Source: Runella slithyformis DSM 19594
Lineage (GTDB): Bacteria; Bacteroidota; Bacteroidia; Cytophagales; Spirosomataceae
Direction of reading: 5' to 3'
DNA length: 64,000 bases
Assembly: GCF_000218895.1 (NCBI RefSeq)
Contig: NC_015703.1
Span: 5,655,001-5,719,000 of the forward strand
Numbering within the stretch: position 1 is the first letter of the stretch; each line of letters begins with the position of its first letter. Both the position numbers and the translations under genes were made by a program. Under the pieces are notes generated by a model that was given only the letters and a program-made list of their open reading frames with translations, had not been told where the DNA came from and did not search any database. Of the stretch, positions 24,886 to 58,900 are shown in pieces.

Positions 24886-25884
24886 ATGACTCAGCAGGAA
24901 TTCAATGATTTGTCGAAACGCTATCTGGAAGGCAAAACGACCGAAAAGGAAGACAATCAGTTGATGGATTGGTTCAATACCCAGCCCAAGCAGCTTCCTC
25001 TCCCCCCTTTTCAATCACAAAAAAAAGAAATCGAAAAACGAATATGGCAAAATATACAAGCCCGGATTCGACCAGCATCCAACGGCTTAACCATTAAAAT
25101 GGCATGGTTGGTTGGAATCGCAGCCTGTTTTGTATGCGGATTTAGTTGGTTATCTACCCATAAACTTCCCCAAGACAACAATACAACCGTACTTAAGAAC
25201 CCCGAACAGGTAGGCATCGAAATGAAGAACACGACCATGATAGAACAGAAAGTCCGATTGGAAGATGGTACCGAGATTATGCTGAAACAAAACAGCAGTA
25301 TTATTTATGACAAAAATTATAACAAAACCAAACGGGAAGTACACCTGATCGGCGAAGCTTTTTTTATCGTAAAACGAAACGTAACCAAACCCTTTGTGGT
25401 GCATACGGGCGACCTGACAACAGAAGTACTGGGTACAAGTTTTCGTATCAAACATCACCAAAAAGCCAACACCATTGAAGTAGCCGTAACGACAGGAAAA
25501 GTCTCCGTTTATGCCGAAAAATCAACCCGAAAATCCGAACGAAACGGGGTTATACTTACCCCAAATCAGCGGGTTGTGTTTGATGTTGTTTCCAAAAACA
25601 TGGTTCCCGGCATCGTTGAAATCCCTATCCCCATCGCGATCAATGAAGAAAGCCCTCCGCAACTGATCTTCAAAGAAGCCTCTCTAGAACATGTCCTGGA
25701 AGAACTTTCAAAGCTATACGGAATTGAATTTATGATTGCCAATCCCAACGCCAAAGATTGCCACATCACCGCCGACCTCAACGGTCTTTCTCTATTTACC
25801 CAACTGGAGCTCATCTGTAAATCCATCGACGCTACCTACGAAAAACGCGGCACGGTGGTATTTATTTACGGCGAAGGGTGTTAA
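24886..25884 (+). CDS. FecR-type anti-sigma factor 1
   Basis: The protein has 332 residues. An N-terminal cytoplasmic part that would bind the sigma factor is followed by one membrane segment at about 72-89 (AWLVGIAACFVCGFSWL). The periplasmic FecR domain shows LEDGTEIMLKQNSSI, REVHLIGEAFF and TEVLGTSFRI. The C-terminal DUF4974 domain (LIFKEASLEHVLEELSKLYG) resembles the STN fold. It should take a signal from the STN domain of the SusC product downstream. The stop is followed by the conserved hairpin described at 25883. Confidence 0.92.
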   Translation: MTQQEFNDLSKRYLEGKTTEKEDNQLMDWFNTQPKQLPLPPFQSQKKEIEKRIWQNIQARIRPASNGLTIKMAWLVGIAACFVCGFSWLSTHKLPQDNNTTVLKNPEQVGIEMKNTTMIEQKVRLEDGTEIMLKQNSSIIYDKNYNKTKREVHLIGEAFFIVKRNVTKPFVVHTGDLTTEVLGTSFRIKHHQKANTIEVAVTTGKVSVYAEKSTRKSERNGVILTPNQRVVFDVVSKNMVPGIVEIPIPIAINEESPPQLIFKEASLEHVLEELSKLYGIEFMIANPNAKDCHITADLNGLSLFTQLELICKSIDATYEKRGTVVFIYGEGC

Positions 25885-25988
25885 AAAAAGAGTCAAAAAT
25901 GCTATGAACATTTTTGACTCAAAAGTAAACTCCTCTACAAACGCCAATCTGTGGGAGGAGCCTGTTTTTCAATCTATTTCTATTAAAA
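25883..25988 (-). ncRNA. Putative cis-antisense RNA of the susC1 leader, ending at a conserved hairpin
   Basis: Stem 25890-25901 (GAGTCAAAAATG) pairs with 25909-25920 without mismatch around a seven-base loop. On its plus-strand 5' side is A7 (25883-25889), so on the minus strand it is a textbook terminator. A minus-strand TAGATTTA box (26002-25995), one base from TAnnTTTG, and TTTG (26027-26024) lie 21 bases apart, predicting a start near 25988. The RNA would be about 105 nt, covering the susC leader. No transcript data are visible. Confidence 0.4.
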
Positions 25989-26001
25989 AACAAGTAAATC
26001 T

Positions 26002-29000
26002 ATGAAAAAACCCGTACCGATTCCAAAAATCATGTGGAAGGTTATGAAAATTACATTTTCACAATTGCTCCTGTCGGTCGTATGTGCCGGCATGATCCGG
26101 GCCCACGACGCCCAAGCGCAGGAAATACTCAACAGACCTATATCGGTAATCGGCGAACGCCTAGAACTGAGAGATGTTCTGAGTCAAATAGAGAACCAGG
26201 CCGAGATAAAATTTGTGTACAGCACCAAGATAAAGTCCAACCAACGCCTGACCCTGAATATCAGTAAACGTAAACTCTCAACGGTATTGGATGAAATTCT
26301 GAAGCCGATCGCCATCGAATACGAAGTGATTGAAAACCGTATTCTGCTAAAAAAAAGTAAATACGAACAAAGCTTACTCCCAAACGAAGAAGAGCAGGCA
26401 ACGACGGTCGTTCAGCCCATTGAACTACCCGTCAGCGGCACTGTTAAAGACGAAAAGGGCGTCACTATGGCGGGTGTGAGTATTGTGATCAAAGGAACCT
26501 CCCGAGGCACCACAACCGATGCCAACGGCAACTTTAAGATTGACGTACCCGACAAAAACACGACCTTGATTATCAGTTATGTGGGGTATTTTTCCCAGCA
26601 AATCACGGTGGGAAATCGGAGTCAAATCAACCTCTCCCTTCTGCCCGACGAGCGCTCGCTCAATGAAGTGCAGGTGGTGGCCTTTGGCGAACAGCGCAAG
26701 CGCGATGTAACCGGCTCCATCGCCTCACTGAAAGCGGCCGATATTCGCGCCAACACGGCGGCCAGCCCGGATGTGGCCTTGCAGGGGCGCGCTGCGGGCG
26801 TGCAAATCACGCAGTCGGGCGGAACTCCCGGCGGCGCAGTGCGTATCAATGTACGAGGAGTGGCCTCCATCAATTCCAACTCCCAGCCGCTTATTGTCAT
26901 TGACGGACAGCCCGTAAACAGCTCTGCTTTCGGAACCGGCGGGGTGGCCATGAACCCATTGGCTGAAATCAACCCCGACGACATTGAATCAATGGAAGTA
27001 CTGAAAGATGCTTCGGCTTCTATATTGTTCGGTTCAAGAGCCGCCAACGGGGTTATTCTGATTACCACAAAAAAAGGAATCAAAGGCAAACCTACTATTG
27101 ATTTCAGCTACCAACAGGGCATTAATACGGCCACCAACCGTGTAGACTTTATTGACAACGGGGCCGACCATTTCAACATTTTGAAACGGGCCGCCCGCAA
27201 CAACGTGCCGGCAGGGTTAGCCCCTGCTTCTTCCAACTTGACAAGCTTAGTGCCCACGGGTATTTTACGAGGCTCGTTGCCCGCTTCATTTGATAATCAA
27301 TTGATTGACTCTACCACTCTCTATAACACCCGCACCAATTGGCTCGACCAAGTGCTGCGACAGGGAGGATTTCAACAGGCAACGCTAAGCGCCGGCGGCG
27401 GACTGAAAAACCTGACAATTTACGGCAGCGGGTCGTATCGCAAAGAAGACGGGATTGTGATCGGACAGGGCCTGCGCCGTTTGAGCGGACGCGTAAATGT
27501 AGAATACAACCCTATCAAAATCCTCAAACTGGGGGCCAACGTAGCACTCAACAGCATTGATAACGAAGCCATTCCGCTGGCAAATTCGTACCAATACGGC
27601 CTAACCTCCGCTTTGCCTGCCTACCCGATTCAGTTGCCCGATGGTTCATACTTCAACGGTATTGCCAACGGCACCAACAATACCCTGAGCATAGGTACCA
27701 ACCCCGTTTTTTACCGCAACAATTATTCTAACAAATCCAACACTTTCAGAAATATTAACACCTTTTTTGCCCAAATTGAGCCACTGAAAGGTTTAACTAT
27801 CCGTTCGGAATTCGGCACGGATTACCAAAAAACCAAGAACGATATTTTGCTCAATCCCACACTGTATCCTACGGGAATTCAAGGGGCCGAACGGACGGGA
27901 GGAGGCCGCGCTGAAAACCGCGATGTACTGAACCGTAATTCTAACTGGAACAATACGATCAACTACGTACGGGAATTGGGCAAAGATCATCGCATCGGCC
28001 TTTTAGTGGGAAACAGCCTGCAAAACCGCATTTCCGATAATGAAACCTACATCACAGAGCGCGTGCCGCCCGGTGCCAAAACGGGCTTGGACACCACCCG
28101 AACCATTCTTTTCAACGATGAAATATCGTTTCGGTTTGTCTCTTATTTTGGCCGAATCAACTACGCCTATAAAGACAAATACCTGTTTGAAGTCAGTCTG
28201 CGCTCCGACGGCTCCTCGCGCTTCGGTCCCGAAAACCGCTGGGCTACCTTTCCGGGAATGTCTGTCGGCTGGGTCATCAGCGATGAGAGCTTCCTGAGCA
28301 ACAGCTCCTTTGTTAATTTCCTGAAACTGCGCGCCAGTTATGGCCGCACCGGAAACGCCGAAATCGGCAATTTTTCATGGCAAAAAAACTTTACGTTTGT
28401 GGGGTACAATGCCGCGATTTACGGAGGGATTCAGGGAGGACAATTTACCAATCCGGGAAACACCGCCCTGACGTGGGAGTCCACCAAGCAATTTGATGCG
28501 GGCATTGAATTTACCCTGTGGAACAAACGCATCAGCGGGACGTTGGATTATTACAACAAAGATTCCGAAGGATTGCTGCTTGATTACGCGTTGGGACCGC
28601 TGTTTGGCACCATCAACAATTCCATGACCATCAACTTAGGTTCTGTTCGCAATCGAGGGGTAGAGTTCAGCCTCACCACGCGCAACATCATGAAAAAGGA
28701 CTTCCGCTGGACGACGGATTTTAACATCAGCCGCAATAAGAACACCGTCCTGAGCACCTACACGGCACCGTTCCTCAATTTCCCCTTCCAGGTCATTGCC
28801 GGACCGAGCATTGCCACTCCGGGCTATCCGTTAGGCAATTATTACATGGCGCAGTTTGCAGGATTTGACCCCAATACCGGCAACGAGCTGTTTTATGAGC
28901 GCGATCGGGTCGTTTTTAATAATACCGGTCAGACAGTAAGAACGGGTGCTTTATGGGACGGAACCATTGCAAACAATGCCGGCAATAATCAATTCATTCT

Positions 29001-29541
29001 CGAAAATCGCACGCCGTACCCGGTCCTTTTCGGCGGATTGACCAACAGTTTTCAATTTCGTAAAATTGATTTTAATTTCCTGTTTTACTACCAATACGGC
29101 AACTGGATCTATGACCAGGCCCAACGTGCACAGAGTTATGCCACCACCGGTCAGGTATTACGGGCTGAAAGCCCGGGCATCGGGAGTCTGCGTGATGAAC
29201 TTAACAAAACCGAAGGGGCCTTCCGGATGCAGTGGAACTCCAACGCCCGCAGTTTTGAATCTTCCCGCTTTTTGCACGACGGCTCATTCATCCGACTCAA
29301 AAACGTTCAGCTTGGATATACACTTCCCGCATCGGTGGCCAAAAAACTACGCCTTCGTACAGCGCGTATTTCTTTGACGGGTCAAAACCTGCTCACGTTT
29401 ACCAAGTTCAGAGGCTGGGATCCCGAAGTATTTCGCAACGGCGGGGCCGAGGGCTCCACGGCTACGCTTTCACCGGGCGTAACCAACAACGACTTGCCGC
29501 AGGTTCGGACTATTTTGGTTGGGGTTAATTTCGGTTTCTAA
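26002..29541 (+). CDS. SusC/RagA-family TonB-dependent transporter 1 (with STN domain)
   Basis: The protein has 1179 residues. The signal peptide ends DAQAQ near residue 41. An STN domain (ILNRPISVIGERLELRDVLSQIEN..., about 42-110) shows it can signal to FecR. A carboxypeptidase-like domain (VSGTVKDEKGVTMAGVSIVI, near 145-220) precedes the plug domain (DVTGSIASLKAADIRAN, RINVRGVASINSNSQPLIVIDG) and the barrel, which ends VGVNFGF with the usual final aromatic residue. It moves a carbohydrate across the outer membrane with TonB energy. It pairs with the SusD-like gene 24 bases downstream. Start codon at 26002; ATGs a little further in are possible. Confidence 0.95.
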   Translation: MKKPVPIPKIMWKVMKITFSQLLLSVVCAGMIRAHDAQAQEILNRPISVIGERLELRDVLSQIENQAEIKFVYSTKIKSNQRLTLNISKRKLSTVLDEILKPIAIEYEVIENRILLKKSKYEQSLLPNEEEQATTVVQPIELPVSGTVKDEKGVTMAGVSIVIKGTSRGTTTDANGNFKIDVPDKNTTLIISYVGYFSQQITVGNRSQINLSLLPDERSLNEVQVVAFGEQRKRDVTGSIASLKAADIRANTAASPDVALQGRAAGVQITQSGGTPGGAVRINVRGVASINSNSQPLIVIDGQPVNSSAFGTGGVAMNPLAEINPDDIESMEVLKDASASILFGSRAANGVILITTKKGIKGKPTIDFSYQQGINTATNRVDFIDNGADHFNILKRAARNNVPAGLAPASSNLTSLVPTGILRGSLPASFDNQLIDSTTLYNTRTNWLDQVLRQGGFQQATLSAGGGLKNLTIYGSGSYRKEDGIVIGQGLRRLSGRVNVEYNPIKILKLGANVALNSIDNEAIPLANSYQYGLTSALPAYPIQLPDGSYFNGIANGTNNTLSIGTNPVFYRNNYSNKSNTFRNINTFFAQIEPLKGLTIRSEFGTDYQKTKNDILLNPTLYPTGIQGAERTGGGRAENRDVLNRNSNWNNTINYVRELGKDHRIGLLVGNSLQNRISDNETYITERVPPGAKTGLDTTRTILFNDEISFRFVSYFGRINYAYKDKYLFEVSLRSDGSSRFGPENRWATFPGMSVGWVISDESFLSNSSFVNFLKLRASYGRTGNAEIGNFSWQKNFTFVGYNAAIYGGIQGGQFTNPGNTALTWESTKQFDAGIEFTLWNKRISGTLDYYNKDSEGLLLDYALGPLFGTINNSMTINLGSVRNRGVEFSLTTRNIMKKDFRWTTDFNISRNKNTVLSTYTAPFLNFPFQVIAGPSIATPGYPLGNYYMAQFAGFDPNTGNELFYERDRVVFNNTGQTVRTGALWDGTIANNAGNNQFILENRTPYPVLFGGLTNSFQFRKIDFNFLFYYQYGNWIYDQAQRAQSYATTGQVLRAESPGIGSLRDELNKTEGAFRMQWNSNARSFESSRFLHDGSFIRLKNVQLGYTLPASVAKKLRLRTARISLTGQNLLTFTKFRGWDPEVFRNGGAEGSTATLSPGVTNNDLPQVRTILVGVNFGF

Positions 29542-29565
29542 CAATTATTCTATAAGCAATTGATA

Positions 29566-31206
29566 ATGAAAAGAATACATAGCATTATGGGAATGGCAGC
29601 CGTAGCGATCGGCAGTGTTTCCTGCGATAAATACTTAGACGAAGTTTCTTCCAAAACCCTCATTCAGGCACAAAATGTACGCACGGTACAGGAATTGGAC
29701 ATTTTGATGACCGGGGCGTATTCGGGCATTGCCCGGGAAGTGGCCTTTGGCGGCAATGCGCTTGTCATTGGCGAAACATTCGGTGATCTGGTAGCTGTGA
29801 ACAACGTCAACTACCGTAACAGTCCAAGCCGCTCTTCGAGAGTATATACCTGGACGCACCGGGAGGAAGATTACGGGTATCAGGCGGAATTTTTGCAATG
29901 GTCTACGTTTGGGCTCAACAATGCCAACAACGTGCTGGAAATCCTGCAAAGCAATCAGGTACAAACCCCGGGAGAAACTGACCCCCGAAAAGACATCAGC
30001 CTGCAAAAGGGCCGCATCGAAGGAGATGCCCGTTTTGTGCGTGCGTTGTGCATTTTTGAACAAACACGCCTTATCGGTTATCCGTGGGGATACACCCCGG
30101 ACAACTCGCATCCCGGGCCCGTCGGAAATTACAGATCAGTGTCTGAGTTTGGCGATCTGGCCTATCCCCGCCTGAGCGTTAAAGCCGCCTATGACAGTGT
30201 CTTGAACGATTTGCGTATTGCCGAACGACTCCTGCCGGAAAACTACAATCCGGCACAACACCTACCCGACATGCAGCCACGCGCCAATAAATACGCTGCC
30301 CTGGCCCTCATGGCACGGGTGTATTGGCAGCAGGACAACGTAGACAGCTGTCTGGCGGTTTGTAACCGTCTGCTTGGGCCCGGCAATGCCAATCGTTTTC
30401 CCTTAGTGCCGGGCAGTCAGATGTTGACGCAGCTTTTTCAGCGTACCGGCATCATGCCGAGTACCAATTCCGCCAATCGTGACGAGGTAATTTTTGAACT
30501 GGTCAACGTCGTGGGACGAAACTCCCGGACTACCAACGGAGCACCGTTGCGTACGCATTATACCCTCCAAAGTGTGTATACCGCCGCGCAATTGGCCAAT
30601 GTCAACAGCCTTACTTCGGGGCCCAACTTACGCATGAGTCAGCGGTTTAAAACGGTAGCCAATTTTGACCGCCAAAGCGATTTGCGGTATCGTACGCTCT
30701 TGGACACTACGCAGGCAACCACGGCGGCTACGGCCTGGAACAGCCCCAATCGGCTGTGGTTTTCGAGAAAATGGGGTTCTTTGGGCACAACCAATTTAGG
30801 GCCGGTGCAGGGCGTCAATTCCAATATTGTGCTCTTCCGCTCTGCTGAATTTTTATTGATGCGTGCCGAAATGAACCAACGCAAAGGCAATACGGCCTTG
30901 GCCTTGGCCGACCTGAATGCCGTTCGTACGCGGGCGGGCCTCTCGGCGTTGACCACGGCACCGGCCAACCTGTTGGAAGAAATCAGAACGGAATTTGTGC
31001 GCGAAACCTTCAGCGAAGGCAATCGGATCCACAACATCAAACGACTGAAACAACCGCTTAACCCCGGCGACCGGCCCTCCTCACCCGGCGGCGTAGACTG
31101 CGCCTTGGGCAACTGCACTGACGTGCCTTGGAACAGTCGTTTACTGGTGTTTTTGGTACCCCAAACCATGATTGACCGCAATCCGCTTTTAGTACAAAAT
31201 GATTAA
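29566..31206 (+). CDS. SusD/RagB-family lipoprotein 1
   Basis: The protein has 546 residues from the ATG at 29566 (MKRIHSIMGMAA). The lipobox SVSC puts the lipidated cysteine near residue 20, then DKYLDEVSSKT, the typical N-terminus. Helical repeat parts (RAEMNQRKGNTALALADLNAVRTRAG, REFSEGNRIHNIKRL-like) are the SusD core. The last residues are PLLVQND rather than the QNPGY ending of the other three SusD proteins here. It captures the glycan on the cell surface and hands it to SusC1. It overlaps a frame of the next gene slightly. Confidence 0.93.
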   Translation: MKRIHSIMGMAAVAIGSVSCDKYLDEVSSKTLIQAQNVRTVQELDILMTGAYSGIAREVAFGGNALVIGETFGDLVAVNNVNYRNSPSRSSRVYTWTHREEDYGYQAEFLQWSTFGLNNANNVLEILQSNQVQTPGETDPRKDISLQKGRIEGDARFVRALCIFEQTRLIGYPWGYTPDNSHPGPVGNYRSVSEFGDLAYPRLSVKAAYDSVLNDLRIAERLLPENYNPAQHLPDMQPRANKYAALALMARVYWQQDNVDSCLAVCNRLLGPGNANRFPLVPGSQMLTQLFQRTGIMPSTNSANRDEVIFELVNVVGRNSRTTNGAPLRTHYTLQSVYTAAQLANVNSLTSGPNLRMSQRFKTVANFDRQSDLRYRTLLDTTQATTAATAWNSPNRLWFSRKWGSLGTTNLGPVQGVNSNIVLFRSAEFLLMRAEMNQRKGNTALALADLNAVRTRAGLSALTTAPANLLEEIRTEFVRETFSEGNRIHNIKRLKQPLNPGDRPSSPGGVDCALGNCTDVPWNSRLLVFLVPQTMIDRNPLLVQND

Positions 31207-31219
31207 AAGAAACAAAGAT

Positions 31220-31909
31220 ATGAAAATAGCTCATCCGATTTTGGCCGTTTGCTGCGCCTTATTACTCGTTTCTTCCTTTTGGGCGTGCGAAAATCCACCA
31301 TTTCCTACGGTCACCAACGATGCCTCCCTGCGCGCCCAAATCAAGGGCGTTTGGGTGCCCGTCTCACTCACGATGAAGTATCAGGTCGGTATAGTTCCCC
31401 GCTCCCGCGACACCGTCGTTACCATCACGCCTACTACAGCACCGCTGTTGGTTGCCGGGCGTGCCAATCCCGTCATGCCCTTTACCGATACGCTTTATTT
31501 GGCCGCGCGCACCGCTACCGCTGATACCTTTTGGCTGGCCAATCGGGGCATTCGTCAACAGGGAAATTTTTCGTTGGCAAAAGTCAATAACGAAGGTCAG
31601 GAAGCCACGCTGCTGCGTTTCGGTCGCCCAACGTATACGCGGGGACAAATCAGTCGTTGGAACTATGACTTTGTGTTTCACGGAACCGTAGCCCCCAACG
31701 CTGCCGGCGCACCCGTCTATACCTCAGCGACTTACACCAATTACTCACCGACCATTACTTCGCTCACAGACCGTCAAATGGTCGTAACGTTTAATACTCA
31801 GGCAAACATCAACGTGCCGGTAGTTCCCATCACGACCGCCAATCAAACCCTGAATGCCTCTTGGGGGGGACGGCTGATTGTGTTTACGGCCACCTATTCA
31901 AAACAATAA
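31220..31909 (+). CDS. Hypothetical lipoprotein of PUL module 1
   Basis: The protein has 229 residues from MKIAHPILAV. The signal sequence ends SFWAC near residue 22. Mature strands with many T, V and N residues (TTAPLLVAGRANPVMPFTDTLYL, YTSATYTNYSPTITSL) suggest a beta-sandwich. An earlier ATG at 31199 overlaps the susD stop, but the later one gives a normal signal peptide. Its place right after susD fits a SusE/SusF-like surface glycan-binding role, but no family is recognised. It is followed by about 100 bases without a gene. Confidence 0.7.
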   Translation: MKIAHPILAVCCALLLVSSFWACENPPFPTVTNDASLRAQIKGVWVPVSLTMKYQVGIVPRSRDTVVTITPTTAPLLVAGRANPVMPFTDTLYLAARTATADTFWLANRGIRQQGNFSLAKVNNEGQEATLLRFGRPTYTRGQISRWNYDFVFHGTVAPNAAGAPVYTSATYTNYSPTITSLTDRQMVVTFNTQANINVPVVPITTANQTLNASWGGRLIVFTATYSKQ

Positions 31910-32007
31910 CGCTATTAACAGCCATGAATTCAGTAAAAGTATAGACTAAAGCCCGGTGCCTTTTGCCACAGAGACAGGATGTCCGTACTGAACGACTTTT
32001 TTTCCAG

Positions 32008-32883: not shown

Positions 32884-32911
32884 GCATTTGTTTACCGGCA
32901 CCACAACTGAC

Positions 32912-43940: not shown

Positions 43941-44534
43941 GTGGTAAACTCCTCAATCACCGACGAAACGCTCTGGCAACGCCTCAAATCAGGCGATGAA
44001 TGGGCTTTCTCTGCCCTGTTTGAGCGGTATTATCGTTCGTTGATTAGCTACGGAAATTCCTTGAGTGCCTACCCCGAACGGGTACAGGACTGCGTTCAGG
44101 ATGTATTTGTCAATGTATGGTTGTACCGCAACTCCCTGAGCGAGAACGTAGTTGTAAAAGCATACTTGCTGTCAAGCGTGCGAAAACGCATTGCCCGCCT
44201 GCACGAGCGCGACACGGTTTTTCGGCAAACCGCATCGTTGGAATCCGTCCAATTCTCACTGGATTTTTCCATTGAAGATCAGCTCATTGCCGACGAAGAA
44301 ACCGCCGCTCGGGTTTCGCAACTCAATCGGTTGATCAACACACTGCCCGCCCGCCAAAAAGAAGCCCTGTACCTCCGATACCATCAGGGCCTGAGCATAG
44401 AGCAGATCGGTGAAATGCTCGACATCAATCATCAATCCGTTTCCAATCTCCTCCACCGCTGCATCCAACATCTCCGCAAAGAATGGAAGGGCGATCTGAC
44501 GCTTCTGCTGTTGCTCTTTTCGAGAATACTTTAA
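43941..44534 (+). CDS. ECF sigma factor 3 (Bacteroidota FecI-like)
   Basis: The protein has 197 residues and starts at GTG (43941). Region 2: FSALFERYYRSLISYGNSLSAYPERVQDCVQDVFVNVW. Region 4: LSIEQIGEMLDINHQSVSNLLHRCIQHLRKEW. The QSVSNLL core groups it with sigma 4 and away from sigmas 1 and 2. A hydrophobic tail, LTLLLLLFSRIL, ends the protein, as in sigma 4. FecR3 starts 77 bases downstream. A good promoter lies directly upstream. Confidence 0.93.
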   Translation: MVNSSITDETLWQRLKSGDEWAFSALFERYYRSLISYGNSLSAYPERVQDCVQDVFVNVWLYRNSLSENVVVKAYLLSSVRKRIARLHERDTVFRQTASLESVQFSLDFSIEDQLIADEETAARVSQLNRLINTLPARQKEALYLRYHQGLSIEQIGEMLDINHQSVSNLLHRCIQHLRKEWKGDLTLLLLLFSRIL

Positions 44535-44611: not shown

Positions 44612-45715
44612 ATGCAGCAGCGCAATCAATATAAAAACATTGACGACTTTCTGACCGATGAATCCTTCCAAAAATGGGTTCGGGAGGGAGATCAACGTAA
44701 TCATTGGGAGGAATGGACAGTAGAAAACCCCGAACGTGCTAAACTCGTGGCTGAAGCACGCTTGTGGGTACTAGCCATGCGAGTACCTGAATCACCCCTT
44801 TCTTCGTCCGAAATCACCGCTGCGCTACAAGCCTCCCTTATCAAAATTAAATCCATTGAGAAAGAGACTGCCACTCTTTCGGTTCCGTTGTGGAATCGTA
44901 TCGGCTGGCGCAGTATTGCGGCAGTTCTGGTGCTGGGGCTCGCGCTGGGATGGCTGTACCGGCGTCAGGCAGTATCGCAGGATACACTTACCTACGCTGA
45001 ACTCATCAACCGTGATGCCGATGGCCTGATCGAACAGACCAACAACTCCAACAAACCACAATTGATTACCCTGTCGGACGGCAGTTCGGTGCTTCTGCAA
45101 CCCAAAAGCAAATTGAGTTATCCTAAAAGTTTTGAGGGCAACGAGCGCAACGTGTACCTTTTGGGCGAAGGCTTTTTTGAGATCAGTAAAAATCCGAAGA
45201 AACCCTTTTATGTTTTTGCCAATGAGATTGTCACCAAGGTTGTCGGGACGAGTTTTCGGATAAAAGCGTATACCGATCAACCCAACGTGGAAGTGGTCGT
45301 CCGCACCGGGAAGGTGAACGTGAGTTCGAATCAATCCCTTACCCAATCAAGTAAGGCAAGCGTTCAGCTATTGCCTAATCAGGCCGTTCGCTTTGTCCGA
45401 GACCGACTGGTCTTTGAAAAAATAACCGATATAACCCAAGAAAAACAAATCATCAAAACCGTCACGGCTATCGAACAGATCAGTTTTGAATTTTCGGATG
45501 TTCCCGTGGCCCAAATCCTCAAAACCATTGAAGAAGCGTATTTAGTGGAGATCGACTACCCGCAGGAAAAGTTAAAAGACTGCTATCTTACAACTTCCCT
45601 CAGCGATCAGCCGCTGCCCGAAAAACTCAAGATTATCTGCGAGAGTTTGGGCAGCACGACCCGTTATGAAATGAACGGCAACCGAATCACAATCTTATCT
45701 ACCGGATGTAACTAA
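44612..45715 (+). CDS. FecR-type anti-sigma factor 3
   Basis: The protein has 367 residues with a membrane segment at 101-115 (SIAAVLVLGLALGWL). The FecR core shows LSDGSSVLLQPKSKLSY, NVYLLGEGFFEI and TKVVGTSFRIKAY; the C-terminal DUF4974 part is ISFEFSDVPVAQILKTIEEAYLVEI. The N-terminal 95 residues are longer than in FecR1 and FecR2. It lies between sigma 3 and susC3, with a hairpin-bearing gap of 191 bases after it. Confidence 0.92.
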   Translation: MQQRNQYKNIDDFLTDESFQKWVREGDQRNHWEEWTVENPERAKLVAEARLWVLAMRVPESPLSSSEITAALQASLIKIKSIEKETATLSVPLWNRIGWRSIAAVLVLGLALGWLYRRQAVSQDTLTYAELINRDADGLIEQTNNSNKPQLITLSDGSSVLLQPKSKLSYPKSFEGNERNVYLLGEGFFEISKNPKKPFYVFANEIVTKVVGTSFRIKAYTDQPNVEVVVRTGKVNVSSNQSLTQSSKASVQLLPNQAVRFVRDRLVFEKITDITQEKQIIKTVTAIEQISFEFSDVPVAQILKTIEEAYLVEIDYPQEKLKDCYLTTSLSDQPLPEKLKIICESLGSTTRYEMNGNRITILSTGCN

Positions 45716-45764
45716 CCCCCACTTTCAACTGCCTATGGTTTAAAGAATATCCCTGCTTACCCAT

Positions 45765-45893
45765 AAAAAAGCGTCGAAATGCTGCTACATTTTCGACGCC
45801 CGATGCTTCCCCAAACGTGTTGCGTTGACATGCCCTCTGCTAAGGGCACGGGAAGGATTTTGTCAATACCTCCGAAAAAAGTATTTACCAAAA
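45765..45893 (-). ncRNA. Putative cis-antisense RNA of the susC3 leader, ending at a conserved hairpin
   Basis: GCGTCGAAATG (45771-45781) pairs with CATTTTCGACGC (45788-45799) with one bulged base, loop CTGCTA. A6 at 45765-45770 gives a T-run on the minus strand. The promoter match is the best of the three: TTTG (45930-45927), a 19-base spacer, then TACTTTTG (45907-45900), which overlaps the susC start codon. The RNA would be about 128 nt. Confidence 0.45.
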
Positions 45894-45906
45894 ACAAATC
45901 AAAAGT

Positions 45907-48900
45907 ATGAAAAAAACATTGACCAACAAACGATTACTATATCGAATTGTGCAGACGTCACTCTTACAACTCACCTTAGCCATTTTGTTTTCGAGCATCA
46001 CCATGGCTACCCCGGTAAAAGGGCAGAATATGCTTGACCGAAAGGTAAGTGTACACATTACAGATACCTCGTTGGAAAAAGTATTGCGGCAACTCGAAAA
46101 AGAAGCGCAGGTAAAATTTTCGTTCAATTCGAGGGCCTTACAGCTCGACCGTCCGGTAAGCATCAATGCCACCAATGAATCGTTGTCGAGCGTACTGAAT
46201 CGACTTTTGAAACCGTTAAAGATCAAACATATACAGGTAAGCAACCGCATCGTATTGCGAAAAGACGATGCCGCCGCAACGGGTTTGTGGGAAAATGACC
46301 TGCCCGCAAAAATGTTGGAATATCAACTGACCGAATCAATTATCACGGGAACCGTGAGCGATGAAAACGGGATGGGTTTGCCGGGCGTGAGTGTGCTCAT
46401 CAAAGGAACCCAACGCGGCACCACTACCGATGCCGTCGGGAAGTTCAAACTGGCGTTATCCGATAATAACGAAGTACTTGTTTTTTCGTTTGTGGGATAC
46501 CTTTCGCAGGAAATCAAAATCGGTACCCAAACCACCCTGAATGTTTCCTTAAAGCTAGACACCAAAGCATTGGAAGAAGTGGTGGTGGTAGGTTACGGCG
46601 TTCAGCGCAAAAAAGACCTGACGGGAGCCGTATCAACGATAAACGGTGATATGTTTAAAGAGCGCAAAGAAACCCAGGTGGCGCAAGCTCTCCAAGGGGC
46701 TGTGTCGGGCGTAATGGTGACCCGCAACGGGGCCAACGGTGCCATGGGCGGAGCCACTATTCGCATAAGAGGGGTGACCACCATCGGCAACTCCGACCCG
46801 TTGGTGATCGTGGATGGCGTACCCGTGAGCGACGTAAATCAGGTCAACCCCAACGACATCGAAAACCTCTCAGTCCTGAAAGATGCGGCTTCAGCTTCTA
46901 TTTACGGTTCGCGGGCGGCATCGGGGGTGATTTTGATCACCACCAAAAGAGCCAAAAACGATCAGGCCTCCATTCAGTACAGCTACGAAAATGGGTTTGA
47001 TACGCCCACCCAATTGCCCGAGTATATGCGTGCGCAGCGCTACATGGAGTTGGTCAACGAACTCCGCTGGAACGATGCCGGCAACGGTACCAACCGCTTC
47101 CCCACGTTCAGTCAGGATTTGTTGACGGATTATAACCAAAAACACCTTTCTGACCCCGACAGATACCCGGACACCGATTGGATGTCTCTGACCCTGAACA
47201 AAATCGCCCCACGGGAGGCGCACAGTGTCAGTATCATCGGAGGGTCTAAATTTGTAAAATCCAATGCTTCAGTGCGTTATGAAAAAGTGGGCGGTTTTTA
47301 CGACAACAAAAACTACAATCGGATTTTTGTTCGATCCAACAACGATTTTACCATTAATAAACTCATTGGCGGAACGGTCGATTTTAACTTCAAAAGAACC
47401 AATGCCTTAGACCCTACGGCCGCTGATCCGCTGTACCGCACCCGAATTTCATCCCCTATCTATCCGGCAATCTGGGCCGATGGCCGCATTGCCGACGGAA
47501 AGGCGGGTGAGAACGTGTATGCCAAAATTAAATACGGCGGCACCGATCGTAACACATATAATCAGGTTGGCGGACGCCTTGCGCTTGACATTAAACCCAT
47601 TGAAGGTCTGAAACTGTCGGGGATCATTGCTCCGATATTTGACTTCAATAATCAAAAACGCTTCAACCGAAAGGTAGATATCTATGCCTCCAATGACCCC
47701 AACCAATACGTCGTATCGTTGATCGGCGGGGGCCTGACTACGCGCTTGGACGAAAACCGTACCACCAACTACAGCATCACGACCCAGCTTTTGGCCAATT
47801 ACCTCAAAACCGTTGGAAACCATGACTTTACAGTGTTAGCAGGTTATGAGAATTATTACTTCAAAGGCGAGTCGATGGGTGCCTCGCGTGACCAGTTCCT
47901 TTTTGATACCTACCCTTATCTGAACCAGGGCCCGGCCGCCTTCCGGGACAATTTCGGATCGGCATTTGAAACCGCCTACCGTTCGTATTTCGGGCGTCTG
48001 ACGTATAGCTTTAAAGACAAATACCTGATTCAGGCAAATATCCGCCGCGATGGTTCCTCCCGATTCAACGCCAATTATCGTTGGGGTACATTTCCATCAA
48101 TATCAGCGGGTTGGGTAATCAGCGAAGAGGAGTTCTTCAAAAAACAGAACTTGGTTTCTTTCCTCAAACTTCGGGCCTCCTGGGGTACCCTCGGCAATGA
48201 GCGTATCGGAAATTACCCTTCAGTGGGAATCATGAATTTTGGCAATGCTCTTTTTTATCAAAACAACATTGCCACCGCACAGCAAACCGCCGCTCAGGTA
48301 CAGTATGCCATTCAGGATATTTCCTGGGAGAAAACGGCCTCTACCGACCTTGGACTCGACGCTTATTTCTTAAAAAATCGCCTGCGCCTAACCGCCGATG
48401 TGTATTATAAAGAAACCAAAGACATGCTGCTGGCGTTGCAGATCCCAATTTTTGTGGGTTTTGAAAACCCCAACCAAAACACGGGGGTAATGACCACCAA
48501 AGGCATCGACCTTGATCTGGGCTGGACCGACAACATCGGCAAACTGAGGTACTCGGCTTCCGTAAATCTATCGCAATTTCAGTCGATCATGGGTGATTTA
48601 GGCGGTACCGAATTTATCGGCGACCGCATCAAAAAGTTAGGAAGTCAGTTTGACGAATGGTACGGTTATCGTTCCGAAGGAATTTACCAAACCCAGGAAG
48701 ACGTCAACAATTCACCCAAACTCAATGCCAACGTAAAAGTGGGCGATATGAAATACACCGACATCAGCGGCCCCAACGGCGTACCCGACGGAAAAATCTC
48801 CCCCGAATACGACCGCGTACTGCTCGGCAGCTCGCAGCCACAGTGGATGTACGGCGGAAACTTCAAGTTAGACTACCAAGGATTTGATTTAGGTGTTACT

Positions 48901-49308
48901 TTCCAAGGCATTGGGTATCAAAACACTTCTCTGCTTTCGTATACCGATTACAATGCCGAAAACTGGGGTGTGTTTCCGGTATATATGGATGGCAGTACTT
49001 GGAGTTTGAACAATACGGCAGATCAGAATTTAGCGGCCAAATACCCCCGATTTACCGAAACAAACAAAGGACTGAACCGCGCGTTATCTGATTTTTGGTT
49101 GTTTAACGGAGGCTATTTTCGGTTGAAAAACATCACATTGGGTTACACTCTTCCCCAAAATATCTCTCGGAAAATCATGGCAAACAACATACGTTTTTAC
49201 ATCAATGCCACCGATATTTTCTCGCTCAACAGATACCCAAAAGGCTGGGATCCCGAAGGACTGGGGATTGTTTCGACATTTTTGGGCGGCTTTACAATTG
49301 GTTTTTAA
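45907..49308 (+). CDS. SusC/RagA-family TonB-dependent transporter 3 (with STN domain)
   Basis: The protein has 1133 residues. Signal peptide ends near residue 38 (VKGQN). STN domain (MLDRKVSVHITDTSLEKVLRQLEKEAQVKFSFNS), regulatory-like domain (ITGTVSDENGMGLPGVSVLIKG), linker EVVVVGYGVQRKKDLTGAVS, plug (TIRIRGVTTIGNSDPLVIVDG) and barrel ending GGFTIGF. It pairs with the SusD-like gene 19 bases downstream. The STN domain should signal to FecR3. Confidence 0.95.
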   Translation: MKKTLTNKRLLYRIVQTSLLQLTLAILFSSITMATPVKGQNMLDRKVSVHITDTSLEKVLRQLEKEAQVKFSFNSRALQLDRPVSINATNESLSSVLNRLLKPLKIKHIQVSNRIVLRKDDAAATGLWENDLPAKMLEYQLTESIITGTVSDENGMGLPGVSVLIKGTQRGTTTDAVGKFKLALSDNNEVLVFSFVGYLSQEIKIGTQTTLNVSLKLDTKALEEVVVVGYGVQRKKDLTGAVSTINGDMFKERKETQVAQALQGAVSGVMVTRNGANGAMGGATIRIRGVTTIGNSDPLVIVDGVPVSDVNQVNPNDIENLSVLKDAASASIYGSRAASGVILITTKRAKNDQASIQYSYENGFDTPTQLPEYMRAQRYMELVNELRWNDAGNGTNRFPTFSQDLLTDYNQKHLSDPDRYPDTDWMSLTLNKIAPREAHSVSIIGGSKFVKSNASVRYEKVGGFYDNKNYNRIFVRSNNDFTINKLIGGTVDFNFKRTNALDPTAADPLYRTRISSPIYPAIWADGRIADGKAGENVYAKIKYGGTDRNTYNQVGGRLALDIKPIEGLKLSGIIAPIFDFNNQKRFNRKVDIYASNDPNQYVVSLIGGGLTTRLDENRTTNYSITTQLLANYLKTVGNHDFTVLAGYENYYFKGESMGASRDQFLFDTYPYLNQGPAAFRDNFGSAFETAYRSYFGRLTYSFKDKYLIQANIRRDGSSRFNANYRWGTFPSISAGWVISEEEFFKKQNLVSFLKLRASWGTLGNERIGNYPSVGIMNFGNALFYQNNIATAQQTAAQVQYAIQDISWEKTASTDLGLDAYFLKNRLRLTADVYYKETKDMLLALQIPIFVGFENPNQNTGVMTTKGIDLDLGWTDNIGKLRYSASVNLSQFQSIMGDLGGTEFIGDRIKKLGSQFDEWYGYRSEGIYQTQEDVNNSPKLNANVKVGDMKYTDISGPNGVPDGKISPEYDRVLLGSSQPQWMYGGNFKLDYQGFDLGVTFQGIGYQNTSLLSYTDYNAENWGVFPVYMDGSTWSLNNTADQNLAAKYPRFTETNKGLNRALSDFWLFNGGYFRLKNITLGYTLPQNISRKIMANNIRFYINATDIFSLNRYPKGWDPEGLGIVSTFLGGFTIGF

Positions 49309-51040: not shown

Positions 51041-51104
51041 TTCATTCCCGCATCATTATTCAATAACCGCTAAAATCTGCATTGGGTTAAAACGGAAGAA
51101 AGTA

Positions 51105-51122: not shown

Positions 51123-51143
51123 CACGGCACAAAAAGTAAACAC

Positions 51144-53648: not shown

Positions 53649-53691
53649 AAAACGATTAGAATAAATAAAGAGATAGGTAATGAACAACATT

Positions 53692-53727
53692 AATCCCCGG
53701 CGGGCTTCTGTCGGGGATTTGTTTTTT
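53692..53727 (+). terminator. Intrinsic terminator of PUL module 3
   Basis: AATCCCCG (53692-53699) pairs with CGGGGATT (53712-53719), followed by TTGTTTTTT. It lies 44 bases after the last gene of the module. Confidence 0.8.
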
Positions 53728-53739
53728 AGACGCAGTCAC

Positions 53740-53886
53740 TTGGCTCTGCCGACGGGGCAGCCCAAGCGGTGACGACTATGACGAGGCCTCCGGCCTAAAT
53801 AGAACAGCCGATTGAAAGCCTCGTTATTGTCGTCACTCGCCAGACGCGAGCGACTCGACTGCGAATAAGCATCTCGGCAGAGCCAA
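53740..53886. repeat. Nested palindromic element (dispersed-repeat family)
   Basis: Three nested pairs make one long imperfect hairpin: TTGGCTCTGCCGA (53740-53752) with TCGGCAGAGCCAA (53874-53886), GTGACGAC (53769-53776) with GTCGTCAC (53829-53836), and ACGAGGC (53781-53787) with GCCTCGT (53818-53824). Parts match the fic-flanking repeat and the block at 63727-63775 (core AGACGCGAGCGACT). It has no coding frame of note. The form fits a non-autonomous (MITE- or REP-like) element. It precedes sigma gene 4; the rest of the gap, 53887-54033, shows no gene. Confidence 0.6.
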
Positions 53887-54033
53887 TCGATGATTTTTGT
53901 ATTTTCAAAAAAATAGTTCGGAAAAAAGGGTATTTTTTGAAAAACCAGGCACCTGTACTTATAGGCAAGTTTTATAACTTGATTTAGAATAAATGGTAAT
54001 ATGTCAGGCAAATTGTAAAGTGTTTGGAAAAGT

Positions 54034-54645
54034 ATGAAAAGAAATACCCAAAATACCACTGACGAGACAATCCTTTGGAGCGCTTTCAAAAAAGGCGACG
54101 TACGGGCGTTTGAGCAGTTGTACAATCGCTATTTTGAGGTATTGGCCAACTATGGCTATCGGTTCTGTACCGACAAACAACAGCTCGAAGATGCCATTCA
54201 GGATGTATTTGTGGATGTCTGGCGACGCCGACAGCACCTGGCCGACGTAGAAAGTGTAAAATTTTACCTGTTTAGGGCATTACGTCATCAGGTAATCCGT
54301 AACTCCCGCAACGACCTGCTCGAAACCTCCGAAGATATCAACGATTTTCTTGATTTTTTGGTGGCGTTTTCATCAGAACAGCAATCTATCGAACAGGAAA
54401 CGCATTTCACCCAAACGCAGGCTGTAACCAAAGCCATTGCCCAACTGAGCCAACGACAACAGGAAGCCATCAACCTGCGTTTTTATCACGGGATGAGCCT
54501 CAACGAAATGACCCAACTCATGAGCCTCAGCAAACAGTCGGTCAGCAATCTGCTTTTTAAAGCCTACACCGTATTGCGCCTTACCATCAAAGACTTACAC
54601 CCACTTTTGCTGCTATTTTTGCAAGTATCCCACCTTATTAAATAA
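54034..54645 (+). CDS. ECF sigma factor 4 (Bacteroidota FecI-like)
   Basis: The protein has 203 residues. Region 2: FEQLYNRYFEVLANYGYRFCTDKQQLEDAIQDVFVDVWRRR. Region 4: MSLNEMTQLMSLSKQSVSNLLFKAYTVLRLTI. The QSVSNLL core and the hydrophobic tail (LLLLFLQVSHLIK) link it to sigma 3. FecR4 starts 22 bases downstream. It should control the susC4-susD4 unit. Confidence 0.93.
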   Translation: MKRNTQNTTDETILWSAFKKGDVRAFEQLYNRYFEVLANYGYRFCTDKQQLEDAIQDVFVDVWRRRQHLADVESVKFYLFRALRHQVIRNSRNDLLETSEDINDFLDFLVAFSSEQQSIEQETHFTQTQAVTKAIAQLSQRQQEAINLRFYHGMSLNEMTQLMSLSKQSVSNLLFKAYTVLRLTIKDLHPLLLLFLQVSHLIK

Positions 54646-54667
54646 CCACCTTTTTTGCTTCGACCAC

Positions 54668-55762
54668 ATGAACTATGACCATTTTCAACGCAAAGATTTC
54701 CTGCACAACGACTCATTTGTACGGTGGGTATTGTTTCAGGAAAACGACCCTTTTTGGCAGGAGTTCCTGAAACAACACCCTGCCAAAACCAATGAAGTTA
54801 CTCAGGCCAAACAATTGATTTTGACCGTTAAAAAAGCCGAAGGTCAAAATATGCCGGTACTTAATCAAAAAGCTGTTTGGGCCAACATCGAAGACATCAT
54901 TTCTGAAGTAAAAGAAGCAGAAGAACAAACCGGAGCGGTACAACGCTTTTGGCATTCAATGGCTTTCCGATGGGCGGCAAGTTTGTTGTTTTTGGCGGGC
55001 GCAGCTTGGTTTTGGACCGTAAGGAAGCCCGACCACCAAGTCAGTTACCAAGACTTGATAACCGCAGCTGAAGAAAAAAGCCCCCGTCAGGAAGTGGCAA
55101 ACAATGACCCAATCACCAAAACAATACACCTCGAAGATGGTACAACGGTACATTTAGAAAAAGGAGGCCGGCTTAGTTTTCCCGTGCATTTTGAAACCAA
55201 ACGCCGTGAAGTGGTACTGAGCGGAGAAGCGTTTTTTGAAGTAGCCGAAAATCCTGCCAAACCGTTTTATGTATACGCCAATGAGCTGATTACCAGAGTG
55301 TTGGGAACAAGCTTTAGAATATCAGCCTTAGAGAATGGCAAGCAGGTAACGGTAAAAGTACAGACGGGCAGGGTGTCGGTTTTTAAACAAAATCGCGTAG
55401 ACATCGCCGACCCCGAAACCAAAGGACTGCTTCTGTTACCCAATCAGCAGGCTGTTTTTAACCGAACCAACGAAGCTTTGAACCGGAGTTTGGTAGAAGT
55501 GCCCGTACCTATTATAGCACAAAGCCCGCGGGTAAAAAGACAATTTGAGGAAGTGAAGGTATCCGAGGTGTTTAAAGAATTGGAAAAATTGTTTGGCGTT
55601 GAAATCCGCTACAATGAAGACGCACTTTCCGACTGTATTTTGACCACCACCATCAGCGATGATTCTCTGTACGACCAACTCGAAGTGATTTGTCAGACCA
55701 TCGGCGCGGGTTACAAAGAAATCGATGCTCAGATTATTATAGAATCAAAAGGATGTAAGTAA
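54668..55762 (+). CDS. FecR-type anti-sigma factor 4
   Basis: The protein has 364 residues with a membrane segment at 100-118 (FRWAASLLFLAGAAWFWTV). FecR core: LEDGTTVHLEKGGRLSF, REVVLSGEAFFEV and TRVLGTSFRISAL. C-terminal DUF4974 part: QFEEVKVSEVFKELEKLFGVEI. Size and long N-terminus match FecR3. It is followed by a 167-base gap with the conserved hairpin. Confidence 0.92.
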   Translation: MNYDHFQRKDFLHNDSFVRWVLFQENDPFWQEFLKQHPAKTNEVTQAKQLILTVKKAEGQNMPVLNQKAVWANIEDIISEVKEAEEQTGAVQRFWHSMAFRWAASLLFLAGAAWFWTVRKPDHQVSYQDLITAAEEKSPRQEVANNDPITKTIHLEDGTTVHLEKGGRLSFPVHFETKRREVVLSGEAFFEVAENPAKPFYVYANELITRVLGTSFRISALENGKQVTVKVQTGRVSVFKQNRVDIADPETKGLLLLPNQQAVFNRTNEALNRSLVEVPVPIIAQSPRVKRQFEEVKVSEVFKELEKLFGVEIRYNEDALSDCILTTTISDDSLYDQLEVICQTIGAGYKEIDAQIIIESKGCK

Positions 55763-55819
55763 ATAAGCTGTCAATAAACCCAATAACTATGTAAACCAAA
55801 AATCACTTACCCCCCAATC

Positions 55820-55916
55820 AAAAAAAGAGGAAAGATGCTGTCACATCTTTCCCTTACTGAATCTGCGGGTGTGTACGAAGCACCGCATTTTCATGTCCTG
55901 CCTTTTTCAAAACAAA
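55820..55916 (-). ncRNA. Putative cis-antisense RNA of the susC4 leader, ending at a conserved hairpin
   Basis: GGAAAGATG (55829-55837) pairs with CATCTTTCC (55844-55852), loop CTGTCA; A7 at 55820-55826 gives a T-run on the minus strand. A minus-strand TAAATTTG box (55930-55923) overlaps the susC start codon, as in module 3, and a weak TTTC stands at the -33 distance. The RNA would be about 97 nt. Confidence 0.4.
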
Positions 55917-55929
55917 AACAATCAAATTT

Positions 55930-58900
55930 ATGTCAAATTTATTTACCGGAAAAAAGATTTTCTACCTTATGAAAATCACCCTCACGCCGTTGCTGTTTAT
56001 TTGTCTGCTGACTACCCTCAGCTTTGCGGAAAATACCTTTGGCCAGGAACGGCTGCAGGAAAAAATTACGCTCAATCTGAAAAACACGGATCTCAAAGCT
56101 GTGCTCAAAAGCATAGAACGAAAAGCAGACGTTGTTTTTTCTTATCAAAAAGGTGTACTCAGCACCAACGAAAAGCTTAGCATTGATATCAAAAACGAAA
56201 CCTTGGAGTGGGTGTTACAGCACATTCTTCTCCCACGACAAATCAATTATCAAGTCATTAAAGCCAACAAGATTGTTTTGACACGGCGTGTATTGGGGAA
56301 TCTCTCCGAAGATTCTGCCCCTAAGACTATTATCACTACCCGGGACGTTTATACAGAACAAATCATTACCGGAATCGTCTCCGACGAAAACGGTACAGGA
56401 TTACCAGGTGTCAGTATTTTGATCAAAGGGACGCAGAAAGGTACAACTACCGACCCAAACGGCAAGTACCGAATTGCGGTGGCTGACGGTGCTGCGGTAT
56501 TAGTTTTTTCCTTTGTAGGTTATATTTCACAGGAAATTACGGCAGGAAATCGAACAAACATTGACATTATCCTAGAACCGGACCTGAAAGCGCTGGAAGA
56601 AGTGGTGGTCGTAGGTTACGGAACTCAAAGCCGCCGCAACGTAACGGGGTCAGTCACGAAGGTAGATATGAAACAGATGGAAGGGCTGCCCAATACCAAT
56701 ATCTCACAAGCCCTGCGTGGGCGAGTAGCAGGGGTGCAGTTTACCGACAATGGCCGCCCAGGGCAAGGTGGAGGACTTTTAATCAGAGGCCAACGCTCCA
56801 TTACGGCAGGAAATAATCCCCTCATCATTTTGGATGGTATCTTCTTCGAAGGAAGCCTCAACGACATCAACCCCGGCGATATTGAGTCAATGGAGGTATT
56901 GAAAGATGCTTCGGCAACCGCCATTTATGGAGCACGGGCTGCCAATGGCGTTATTTTGGTTACTTCAAAAAGAGGCACAACCGAAAAACCCCAAATCAGA
57001 TTTAGTGCCCTCTACGGTACTTCGCAATGGAGTCATAAGCCTACTTTGCTCAGCCCCGAACGATACCTTCAAAAAATCTTAGATTACCGCAGCCAAGCCG
57101 GGTTGGTTGCTGACCCCGGCAAAGTAGCCGACTATTTAGACGCTACCGAAAAGAAGAATTATTTGGCAGGTAATGCCATTGACCCTTGGAAGCTTGTGTC
57201 GCAATCGGCGGGTATTCAAAACTATGATTTGAGTGTGTCGGGACGTTCAGAGAAATCTAATTATTTTATTTCAACCAACTATAATATTGATAAGGGCCTG
57301 ATTTTCAATGATAACGCAAACCGAAAAAGCGTGAGGGTGAATTTAGAAAACCAAATATTTGATTGGTTCAAAATTGGCACAAACACACAATATGCCGAAC
57401 GGGATTTATCAGGCATAAACGGTAGCGTAACGAGTGCTTTTTGGACTTCTCCGTTTATCTCGCCTTGGTTAGATGCTGACCCAACCCAGCCCAACCCGTT
57501 TCCTACTGAAGACCAGTTGGCAGGCCCTGTGCTTTTCAACGCCATCATCAACCAAAATGAAGAAGTACAGCGCAATTTGTTTGCCAACTTTTACGCTGCC
57601 ATTGAGATACCTTTTGTCAACGGCTTGGCCTATCGCATCAATTACTCACCTAATTATCGTTGGTTTGACCTCAATAATTTTAGCCCTGTCTATCAACGAA
57701 ACGGCGTAAACAATACAGGGAGTGCCAGCCGTAGGGCGGATTTTAACCGTACTTGGGTCCTCGAAAACATCGTTACTTATACCAAACAATTGAATCAAAA
57801 CCACGCCTTTGACCTAACCTTGCTCTACGGACGCAACCAAAACTTCAACCGTTCGTTGGTGGGCTCGGGGGTTGATTTTACGGGGTCGAGCGATGCCAAT
57901 GGCTGGAACAACCTGTCGTTGGCTAAAATTCAAACGACAACTTCCAATGCCTCGCAGGTTGATGCCATATCGTCAATGGCTCGAATCAACTACCGCTTTA
58001 AAGACAAGTACCTGTTTACATTAACAGCTCGTCGGGACGGAAATTCAGTGTTTGGAGCAAATAACAAATTCGGGACATTCCCATCGGCTGCCGTAGCTTG
58101 GATTGTGAGCGACGAACCATTCATGAAAAAGTTACCAGCCGTTAACTCCCTCAAATTCAGGGCTTCTTATGGCTCGGTGGGCAATCAGGCCGTGTCGCCC
58201 TATCAGTCGTTGATCAGACAATCGCAAAGCCAATATGTATTCGGTGACGGCGGGGCTACTTCGGTGGGGTTGTTTCCTGCCAACATGGCCAATCCCAGTT
58301 TGACTTGGGAAACTACCACCACCGCGAATATTGCGCTTGATTTCGATCTTTTCAAAGGGCGAGTTGGCGGTACTGTCGAGTGGTACAATCTGGATACCAA
58401 AGACCTGCTGTTAAACCGCCAATTGCCCACGCCCACGGGTTTTGGCAGTGTACTTACCAACGTGGGGGCTACCAACAACCGAGGTGTGGAAATATCGCTC
58501 AATACCCAAAACGTAAAAAGTGGAAAACTTGAATGGACTTCTTCATTGGCGTTTTCGAGAAACATCAACAAGATTGTTCATATCTACAAGAGTGATGTAA
58601 ACAATGATGGCAGGGAAGACGACGACATCGGCAACGGCTGGTTTATTGGAAAACCTATCCAAATCATTTATGACTATACCTTCGACGGTATCTATCAGGT
58701 AGGCGATCAAATCCCGGTTGGACAAAGGGCAGGATTTGTCAGAATGAAAGACCTTAACGGCGATGGCAAAATCAGCGCCGACGATCGCAGTGTTGTTGGA
58801 AACAAAGATGCCAAGTACCGATGGAGCTTTACCAATAATCTGAAATACGGCAATTTCAATTTGATGATTATGCTCAACTCACTCATGGGCTGGCAAAGAG

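Follow-up and report, generated by a model that had tools for sequence, protein, structure and literature searches.

We analysed a 64 kb window (C4:5655001-5719000) of the 6.92 Mb genome of Runella slithyformis DSM 19594 that contains four modules in which a gene for a FecR anti-sigma factor (fecR) is followed by a gene for a SusC-type TonB-dependent transporter (susC). Our subject is the gap between the two genes, which we predict to encode a short antisense RNA. Modules 1, 3 and 4 lie on the plus strand (positions are those of the window). Module 1 comprises an extracytoplasmic function (ECF) sigma factor gene (24307..24864; Pfam Sigma70_r2 and Sigma70_r4_2), fecR (24886..25884; Pfam FecR and FecR_C) and susC (26002..29541; plug and beta-barrel, TIGR04056). 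In module 3, the corresponding genes are at 43941..44534 (ECF sigma factor, by Pfam domain search), 44612..45715 (fecR; PF16344) and 45907..49308 (susC; TIGR04056), and in module 4, fecR is at 54668..55762 (PF16344) and susC at 55930..59295 (TIGR04056). The gaps therefore extend from the fecR stops at 25884, 45715 and 55762 to the susC starts at 26002, 45907 and 55930.

An earlier inspection of this DNA, here called the sequence-only reading, had described a hairpin in each of the three plus-strand gaps. We found the gap borders and the hairpins, termed H1, as described, and their occurrence exceeded that in shuffled sequences and at other susC genes. H1 is present in three of the four gaps of the window, at 25890..25920 (module 1; 12 bp on the plus and 14 on the minus strand), 45771..45799 (module 3; plus-strand loop CTGCTA) and 55829..55852 (module 4); the gap of the fourth module (minus strand, L011) is about 50 nucleotides (nt) long and carries no H1. 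The stems of 9-12 bp are each preceded by A6-A7 (25883-25889, 45765-45770 and 55820-55826), and they show the ATG-CT...CAT form with matched changes in both arms that had been noticed before, although hairpins elsewhere also have an RTG...CAY top. Read on the minus strand, each H1 is an intrinsic terminator (with T7 in module 1 and T6 in module 3). No T run directly follows H1 in the sense direction. The minus-strand folds have energies of -16.4, -16.5 and -16.6 kcal/mol in modules 1, 3 and 4 (z -6.6, -5.0 and -3.7; plus-strand z -6.7, -4.4 and -4.7). Since both genes are encoded on the plus strand and no other transcript that the terminator could serve is evident, it points to a minus-strand transcript that would start over the susC start.

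A promoter-like box lies at this position. Promoters of Flavobacterium psychrophilum carry TAnnTTTG at -12 to -5 (PMC9723704), and we accordingly placed the predicted RNA start 5 nt past such a box. On the minus strand, a -7 box overlaps the susC start codon in all three modules, exact in module 3 (TACTTTTG, 45900..45907, with TTTG 19 nt upstream) and module 4 (TAAATTTG, 55923..55930) and with one mismatch in module 1 (TAGATTTA, 25995..26002), just as the sequence-only reading had it. The orthologues of module 1 retain its mismatch, a TTTA ending. With starts placed from the box, the predicted antisense RNAs of modules 1, 3 and 4 are ~108 nt (25883..25990, ending in the T run 25889-25883), ~131 nt (45765..45895) and ~99 nt (55820..55918) long, all on the minus strand. 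The earlier prediction of such RNAs is supported at the level of sequence, while its range of 97-128 nt shifts slightly, with module 3 above it.

The box recurs in other gaps. In the 170 nt after H1 of 77 gaps, exact TAnnTTTG was found 59 times on the antisense and once on the sense strand, and locally shuffled sequence gave a mean of 16.2 antisense boxes (maximum 28). Fifty-seven of the 59 antisense boxes fall 60-109 nt after H1. The distance from H1 to the box is steady (mean 83, standard deviation 9.1; fecR to H1: mean 89.5, standard deviation 63.2). When the box was sought 45-115 nt after H1, the predicted RNAs were 91-135 nt long (median 116; 57 of 77 gaps). In 31 of 36 loci of the named relatives introduced below, mostly orthologues, a TTG precedes the box by 20 nt. 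The box takes one of two positions, overlapping the susC start (CAAAnnTATG) or immediately preceding it (CAAAnnTAATG); in the latter form, found in 8 of the 21 box-bearing gaps of the genus Runella, it is off the start codon and still complete.

As a control, we examined the 47 full-length SusC genes of this genome. A long N-terminal extension (taken as STN) marks the FecR-coupled ones and is missing from 37 of the 47. In one of these 37 (L232), an antisense terminator lies 40-130 nt upstream, and one other (L229; susC at C4:5744033-5747062) has a box together with a weak antisense terminator at 38 nt. Among the ten genes with the extension, six have an antisense terminator at 40-130 nt (one of them, L184, with a doubtful start); five carry H1, and four of these five have the box. 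The terminator and the box are nearly restricted to FecR-linked susC genes in this genome. It had been a worry that an A-rich translation start could mimic a -7 box; this is largely answered, because boxes are rare at other susC starts (1 of 37) and remain complete when off the start codon (8 of 21).

An RNA that is selected to fold shows wobble pairs as G·U on its own strand, which appear as A·C on the opposite strand. We collected hairpins by a strand-neutral search that scores both strands alike and sorted them by a flanking A run or T run. In 46 distinct A-preceded hairpins, 46 wobbles were G·U in the antisense and four in the sense reading, counts whose significance is overstated since many loci are orthologues that share ancestry and are not independent. 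The ratios of antisense to sense in the other classes were 5:4 with a T run after the hairpin (n=12), 0:2 with both runs (n=1) and 72:37 with neither (n=72). Strand counts over hairpins chosen by antisense-strand folding (antisense to sense 77:15; 32:7 and 33:2 for H1) are biased towards that strand, and the strand-neutral search gives the unbiased count. Given the wobble bias of the A-preceded hairpins, the antisense RNA looks like the molecule under selection.

Compensatory changes, which the sequence-only reading had suggested looking for, were detected among the orthologues of modules 3 and 1. Of 29 predicted pairs in the module-3 family, 14 are changed on both sides; in one H1 pair, 18 sequences have UA, 14 have CG and none is broken. 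In module-1 orthologues, the H1 stem changes from GAGTC to GGCCG and the opposite arm compensates. The paralogues gave a covariation score of 0.766 (43 distinct sequences; 0.284 when shuffled, <=0.223 when slid), much of which is true by construction because they were picked as hairpins; the fair test is that of the orthologues. Alignment A1 contained 32 of 36 prepared sequences (without L062, L082, L084 and L086) and alignment A2 44 of 50 (without L051, L104, L108, L117, L122 and L127).

To follow the gaps beyond the window, we read fecR loci in four sets. The own genome has 17 FecR_C matches, five of which are in frames of 1051-1241 amino acids taken as susC, leaving 12 fecR loci. The same-genus sample comprised 11 genomes, of which the best-scoring 60 of 200 FecR_C matches were read and five more added later. 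The named set (55 of 58 loci read, without L087, L102 and L103) covers Runella, Flavobacterium, Arcicella, Dyadobacter and Pedobacter as well as Chitinophaga, Flammeovirgaceae and other Cytophagales assemblies. The class sample drew on other families of the class (60 genomes, of which 17 gave a FecR_C match at threshold; 47 of 50 listed matches read). In the own genome, the first 60 same-genus loci and the named set, two loci (L012 and L134) gave no downstream frame, so that 125 of 127 gaps were read. The susC starts were set by the first ATG, and this misplaces some of them (for example L002, L062, L093, L094 and L095).

At -8 kcal/mol or lower, 112 of the 125 gaps have a terminator on the antisense strand and 34 on the sense strand. 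In a stricter count (gaps >=60 nt, terminators <= -11 kcal/mol, near-duplicates removed except in the class sample), antisense-strand terminators were present in 36 of 41 gaps of the genus Runella, 37 of 39 of the named relatives and 15 of 27 of the class sample, compared with 2.0, 1.75 and 1.75 per dinucleotide-shuffled set. The two misses of the named set (L094 and L095) have the hairpin beyond the called susC start. In the own genome, H1 is present in six of the 12 fecR loci (L001, L002, L004, L006, L007 and L008).

Absence of the hairpin from the orthologous gaps of close relatives, which the sequence-only reading had named as evidence that would count against it, did not occur for any of the three modules. 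H1 is present in 10 of 10 module-1 loci (own and FecR 64-83% identical) and in 10 of 11 module-4 loci (own and FecR 50-83% identical), the eleventh (L299) ending inside fecR. L282 and L293 have H1. For module 3, the closest named relatives by FecR are Runella (81-82% identity), and the gap has the same order across 37 sequences: GCCTATG, A run, H1, a second hairpin (H2), AATAC...GTATT, an A-rich stretch, and the box with the start codon. The module-3 FecR relatives in many Flavobacterium genomes (L048-L093) are 57-64% identical and thus about as close as some from Runella (61-64%). Transfer of the module-3 unit between orders is possible.

Taken together, these results suggest that each such gap is a gene for a DonS-like cis-antisense RNA of ~91-135 nt that would lie over the susC leader, a reading to which we assign a probability of about 0.8. 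The parallel to DonS of Bacteroides, drawn in the sequence-only reading, is supported by the wobble bias, the compensatory changes, the steady distance between hairpin and box, the control with other susC genes and the orthologues. What can be read from the DNA is the terminator, apparent selection on one strand, promoter-like boxes whose distance varies little, near restriction to FecR-linked susC in this genome, and conservation; from these we infer that the RNA would be transcribed and act as a repressor, by the mechanism outlined below.

Several observations weigh against this reading, in addition to the shared ancestry behind the strand counts. No exact box was found in the expected range in 20 of the 77 gaps, module 1 included. 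The -33 element is weak in the genus Runella, where TTG is placed as expected in 5 of 21 gaps (columns T 71, T 62 and G 57 per cent). Five of the 12 own fecR loci (L003, L005, L009, L010 and L011; gaps 13-79 nt) have no H1. No terminator was called in five of the 41 Runella gaps (L005, L136, L141, L155 and L158), nor in L045, a locus of the same genus outside the 41-gap set (gap 159). Twelve of the 27 class-sample gaps have no terminator and 14 of the 15 positives come from three genomes (G050, G053 and G058); four loci of order-level relatives (G015, G016 and G018; gaps 4-57 nt) have no H1. Moreover, H1-like hairpins also terminate ordinary genes, and the RTG...CAY top is not confined to fecR-susC gaps.

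The last point became apparent with an H1 model, whose eight best matches in the genome include all six H1-bearing gaps, which were in its training set. The other two (L261 and L263) lie directly downstream of a gene of the same orientation. We rejected the model as a specific detector, as it matches gene-end terminators too (the weaker matches L266 and L267 were also inspected). The form of H1 is that of a normal intrinsic terminator; its position and strand are the special part. We also rejected a match between the module-1 H1 loop CTATGAA and the susC start codon (shuffle fraction 0.005), as the loop differs among the orthologues while the start does not change. In none of the 77 gaps did nearby reverse-complement repeats of the H1 loop fall below 0.05.

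Downstream of H1, the gaps of modules 1 and 3 contain H2, to which we assigned no strand. In module 1 (25930..25969), it consists of CTCCTC...GAGGAG followed by CCTGTTTTTC and looks like a sense terminator by eye, yet the sense scan gave no call. In module 3 (45806..45864), it has the same loop as H1 (CTGCTA), is followed by ATTTTGTC and was called as a sense terminator at -10.2 kcal/mol. The wobbles of H2 show no strand bias (antisense to sense 15:10 and 19:22). The core of the module-1 H2, CTCTACAAACGCCAATCTGTGGGAGG (25933-25958), is letter-identical in 10 loci with FecR identity down to 64%. This identity exceeds the needs of a plain hairpin.

In some gaps, the loops of H1 and H2 are identical over 6-9 letters. 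Such twin loops were found in 5 of 43 gaps (permuted mean 0.92, fraction 0.0005). Three of the five are from one family, and the other two, L142 (GATTCCAGC) and L097 (CAGCGAA), are unrelated and have other letters. In the module-3 family (L046-L093 and L008; 45771-45864 in the window), the loop hexamer of H1 and H2 co-varies by eye between four states (CTGTAA, CTGCTA, CTGCAA and CTCTAA), with L073, L076, L080 and L088 as exceptions. Most Runella paralogues have no twin loops (8% of 37 gaps below 0.05).

Upstream of H1, module 3 has a GCCTATG element at 45731-45738 (GCCTATGG in the window), and GCCTAT is present in 32 of 40 named gaps. The motif AACY-N13..21-TATG, chosen post hoc, precedes H1 in 11 of 37 Runella and 20 of 40 named gaps (shuffled mean 1.0). 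These elements are candidates for the sense promoter of susC.

The two hairpins can be explained in other ways. Antisense attenuation is known from the control of plasmid copy number, and by analogy H2 with its T run may be a sense attenuator in part of the Runella gaps, where the antisense RNA would decide whether susC transcription terminates at H2. Sense terminators of <= -11 kcal/mol occur in 12 of 41 Runella gaps compared with 0.25 per shuffled set, and nine of the 12 lie after H1, between H1 and susC (L107, L108, L114, L117, L118, L129, L143, L162 and L007; two others overlap H1, and L141 has no called H1). TTTT follows H1 at 30-85 nt in 31 of 37 Runella gaps compared with 15 of 37 upstream of H1, and the wobbles of H2 favour neither strand. 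However, such a terminator is present in only one of 39 gaps of the named set and in none of the three window gaps, the module-4 orthologues do not keep H2 as a terminator by eye, and a general antiterminator was not found. We consider this two-way control unlikely. A related possibility, about equally unlikely, is a two-hairpin cassette that serves both strands, in which H1 ends the antisense RNA, H2 ends or shapes the susC leader, and the two communicate. It is supported by the sense terminators after H1 (9 of 41 Runella gaps), the unbiased H2 and the twin loops; if it were true, H1 of the antisense RNA and H2 of the sense RNA would be expected to cross-kiss, or one factor to bind both loops.

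Alternatively, the antisense strand could be silent, and H1, with or without H2, would be an mRNA structure for the stability or translation of susC or for the 3' end of fecR. H1 folds as a hairpin on the sense RNA too, and with AACY-N13..21-TATG upstream of H1 the sense leader may well include both hairpins. Nevertheless, the A-preceded hairpins have their G·U wobbles mostly on the antisense side (46:4), only the antisense RNA has the U run of H1, and TAnnTTTG is found on the antisense strand at a steady distance. A sense-leader element thus appears rather improbable. Finally, starts are A-rich in these genomes and single boxes arise easily by chance, so that chance hairpins and translation starts that mimic a promoter might be combined here. 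This is contradicted by the wobble bias, the numbers of boxes and terminators relative to shuffled sequence, the control with other susC genes and the conservation in orthologues, and we regard it as extremely improbable.

For the cis-antisense RNA that we favour, the following mechanism can be proposed. RNA polymerase with the housekeeping sigma factor would start on the minus strand at the TAnnTTTG promoter over the susC start and first codons, with a TTG-like element ~20 nt further upstream. It would copy the susC leader backwards for ~91-135 nt and end at H1. The resulting RNA could pair with the susC leader from ~12 nt before the start codon to the A run. As long as FecR retains the ECF sigma factor, susC expression would be kept low by the antisense RNA and its polymerase, through leader pairing and head-on interference. 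When the substrate frees the sigma factor, the sense promoter upstream of H1 would outcompete antisense transcription.

If this is true, ECF sigma/FecR-linked uptake in Runella, Flavobacterium and other environmental Bacteroidota would also regularly include antisense control of susC. The strand-specific wobble test would be a route to such genes from genomes alone, and the prediction supplies defined 5' and 3' ends. The RNAs appear to be of a kind known from Bacteroides and predicted here in new places (Runella, Flavobacterium and others). Among the papers covered by our literature search, we found no report of susC-facing antisense RNAs in Runella, nor of a susC-leader family in Flavobacterium.

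DonS is located in a polysaccharide utilization locus (PUL) with sigma and anti-sigma genes, after the anti-sigma gene. DonS-like RNAs end at an intrinsic terminator, as would the RNAs predicted here. Antisense RNAs that face susC have been described for gut Bacteroides (PMC7366714, PMC10994844), with 32 PUL-associated antisense RNAs reported in one study (PMC10994844). The DonS family consists of cis-antisense RNAs of 78-128 nt that face susC homologues and lower their expression; in B. thetaiotaomicron, ten RNAs have a DonS-like orientation, five of which were confirmed by Northern blot, and 52% of the cis-antisense RNAs have a housekeeping-type promoter (PMC7366714). FopS and GibS, small RNAs that act with RbpB, repress susC near the start codon, and FopS acts in trans through a shared seed (PMC11697453). 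The RNAs predicted here resemble them in being small RNAs at the susC start and differ in that each would lie opposite its own susC. The FopS family has been deposited in Rfam (PMC11697453); our Rfam search, in a copy for which the presence of FopS was not established, gave no window match at gathering score, and two sub-threshold matches in the module-3 gap were to families other than FopS. For F. psychrophilum, 287 antisense regions were described in general, with the Bacteroides PUL RNAs cited as a prompt for study; the part of that report covered here names no susC-leader family (PMC9723704). Flavobacterial antisense transcripts and the TAnnTTTG box are nevertheless common ground with our predictions (PMC9723704).

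The closest likeness is to DonS, as far as the sources cited above describe it. The predicted RNAs are also opposite the susC 5' region, their sizes of 91-135 nt compare with 78-128 nt (module 3, at 131 nt, is just outside, with starts placed from the box), and they have a putative promoter of the sigma-A type, with exact TAnnTTTG in 57 of 77 gaps and one mismatch in module 1. They differ from DonS in their genera, Runella, Flavobacterium and others, and in being predicted from sequence. A further difference is the second conserved hairpin, which resembles a sense terminator in some Runella gaps.

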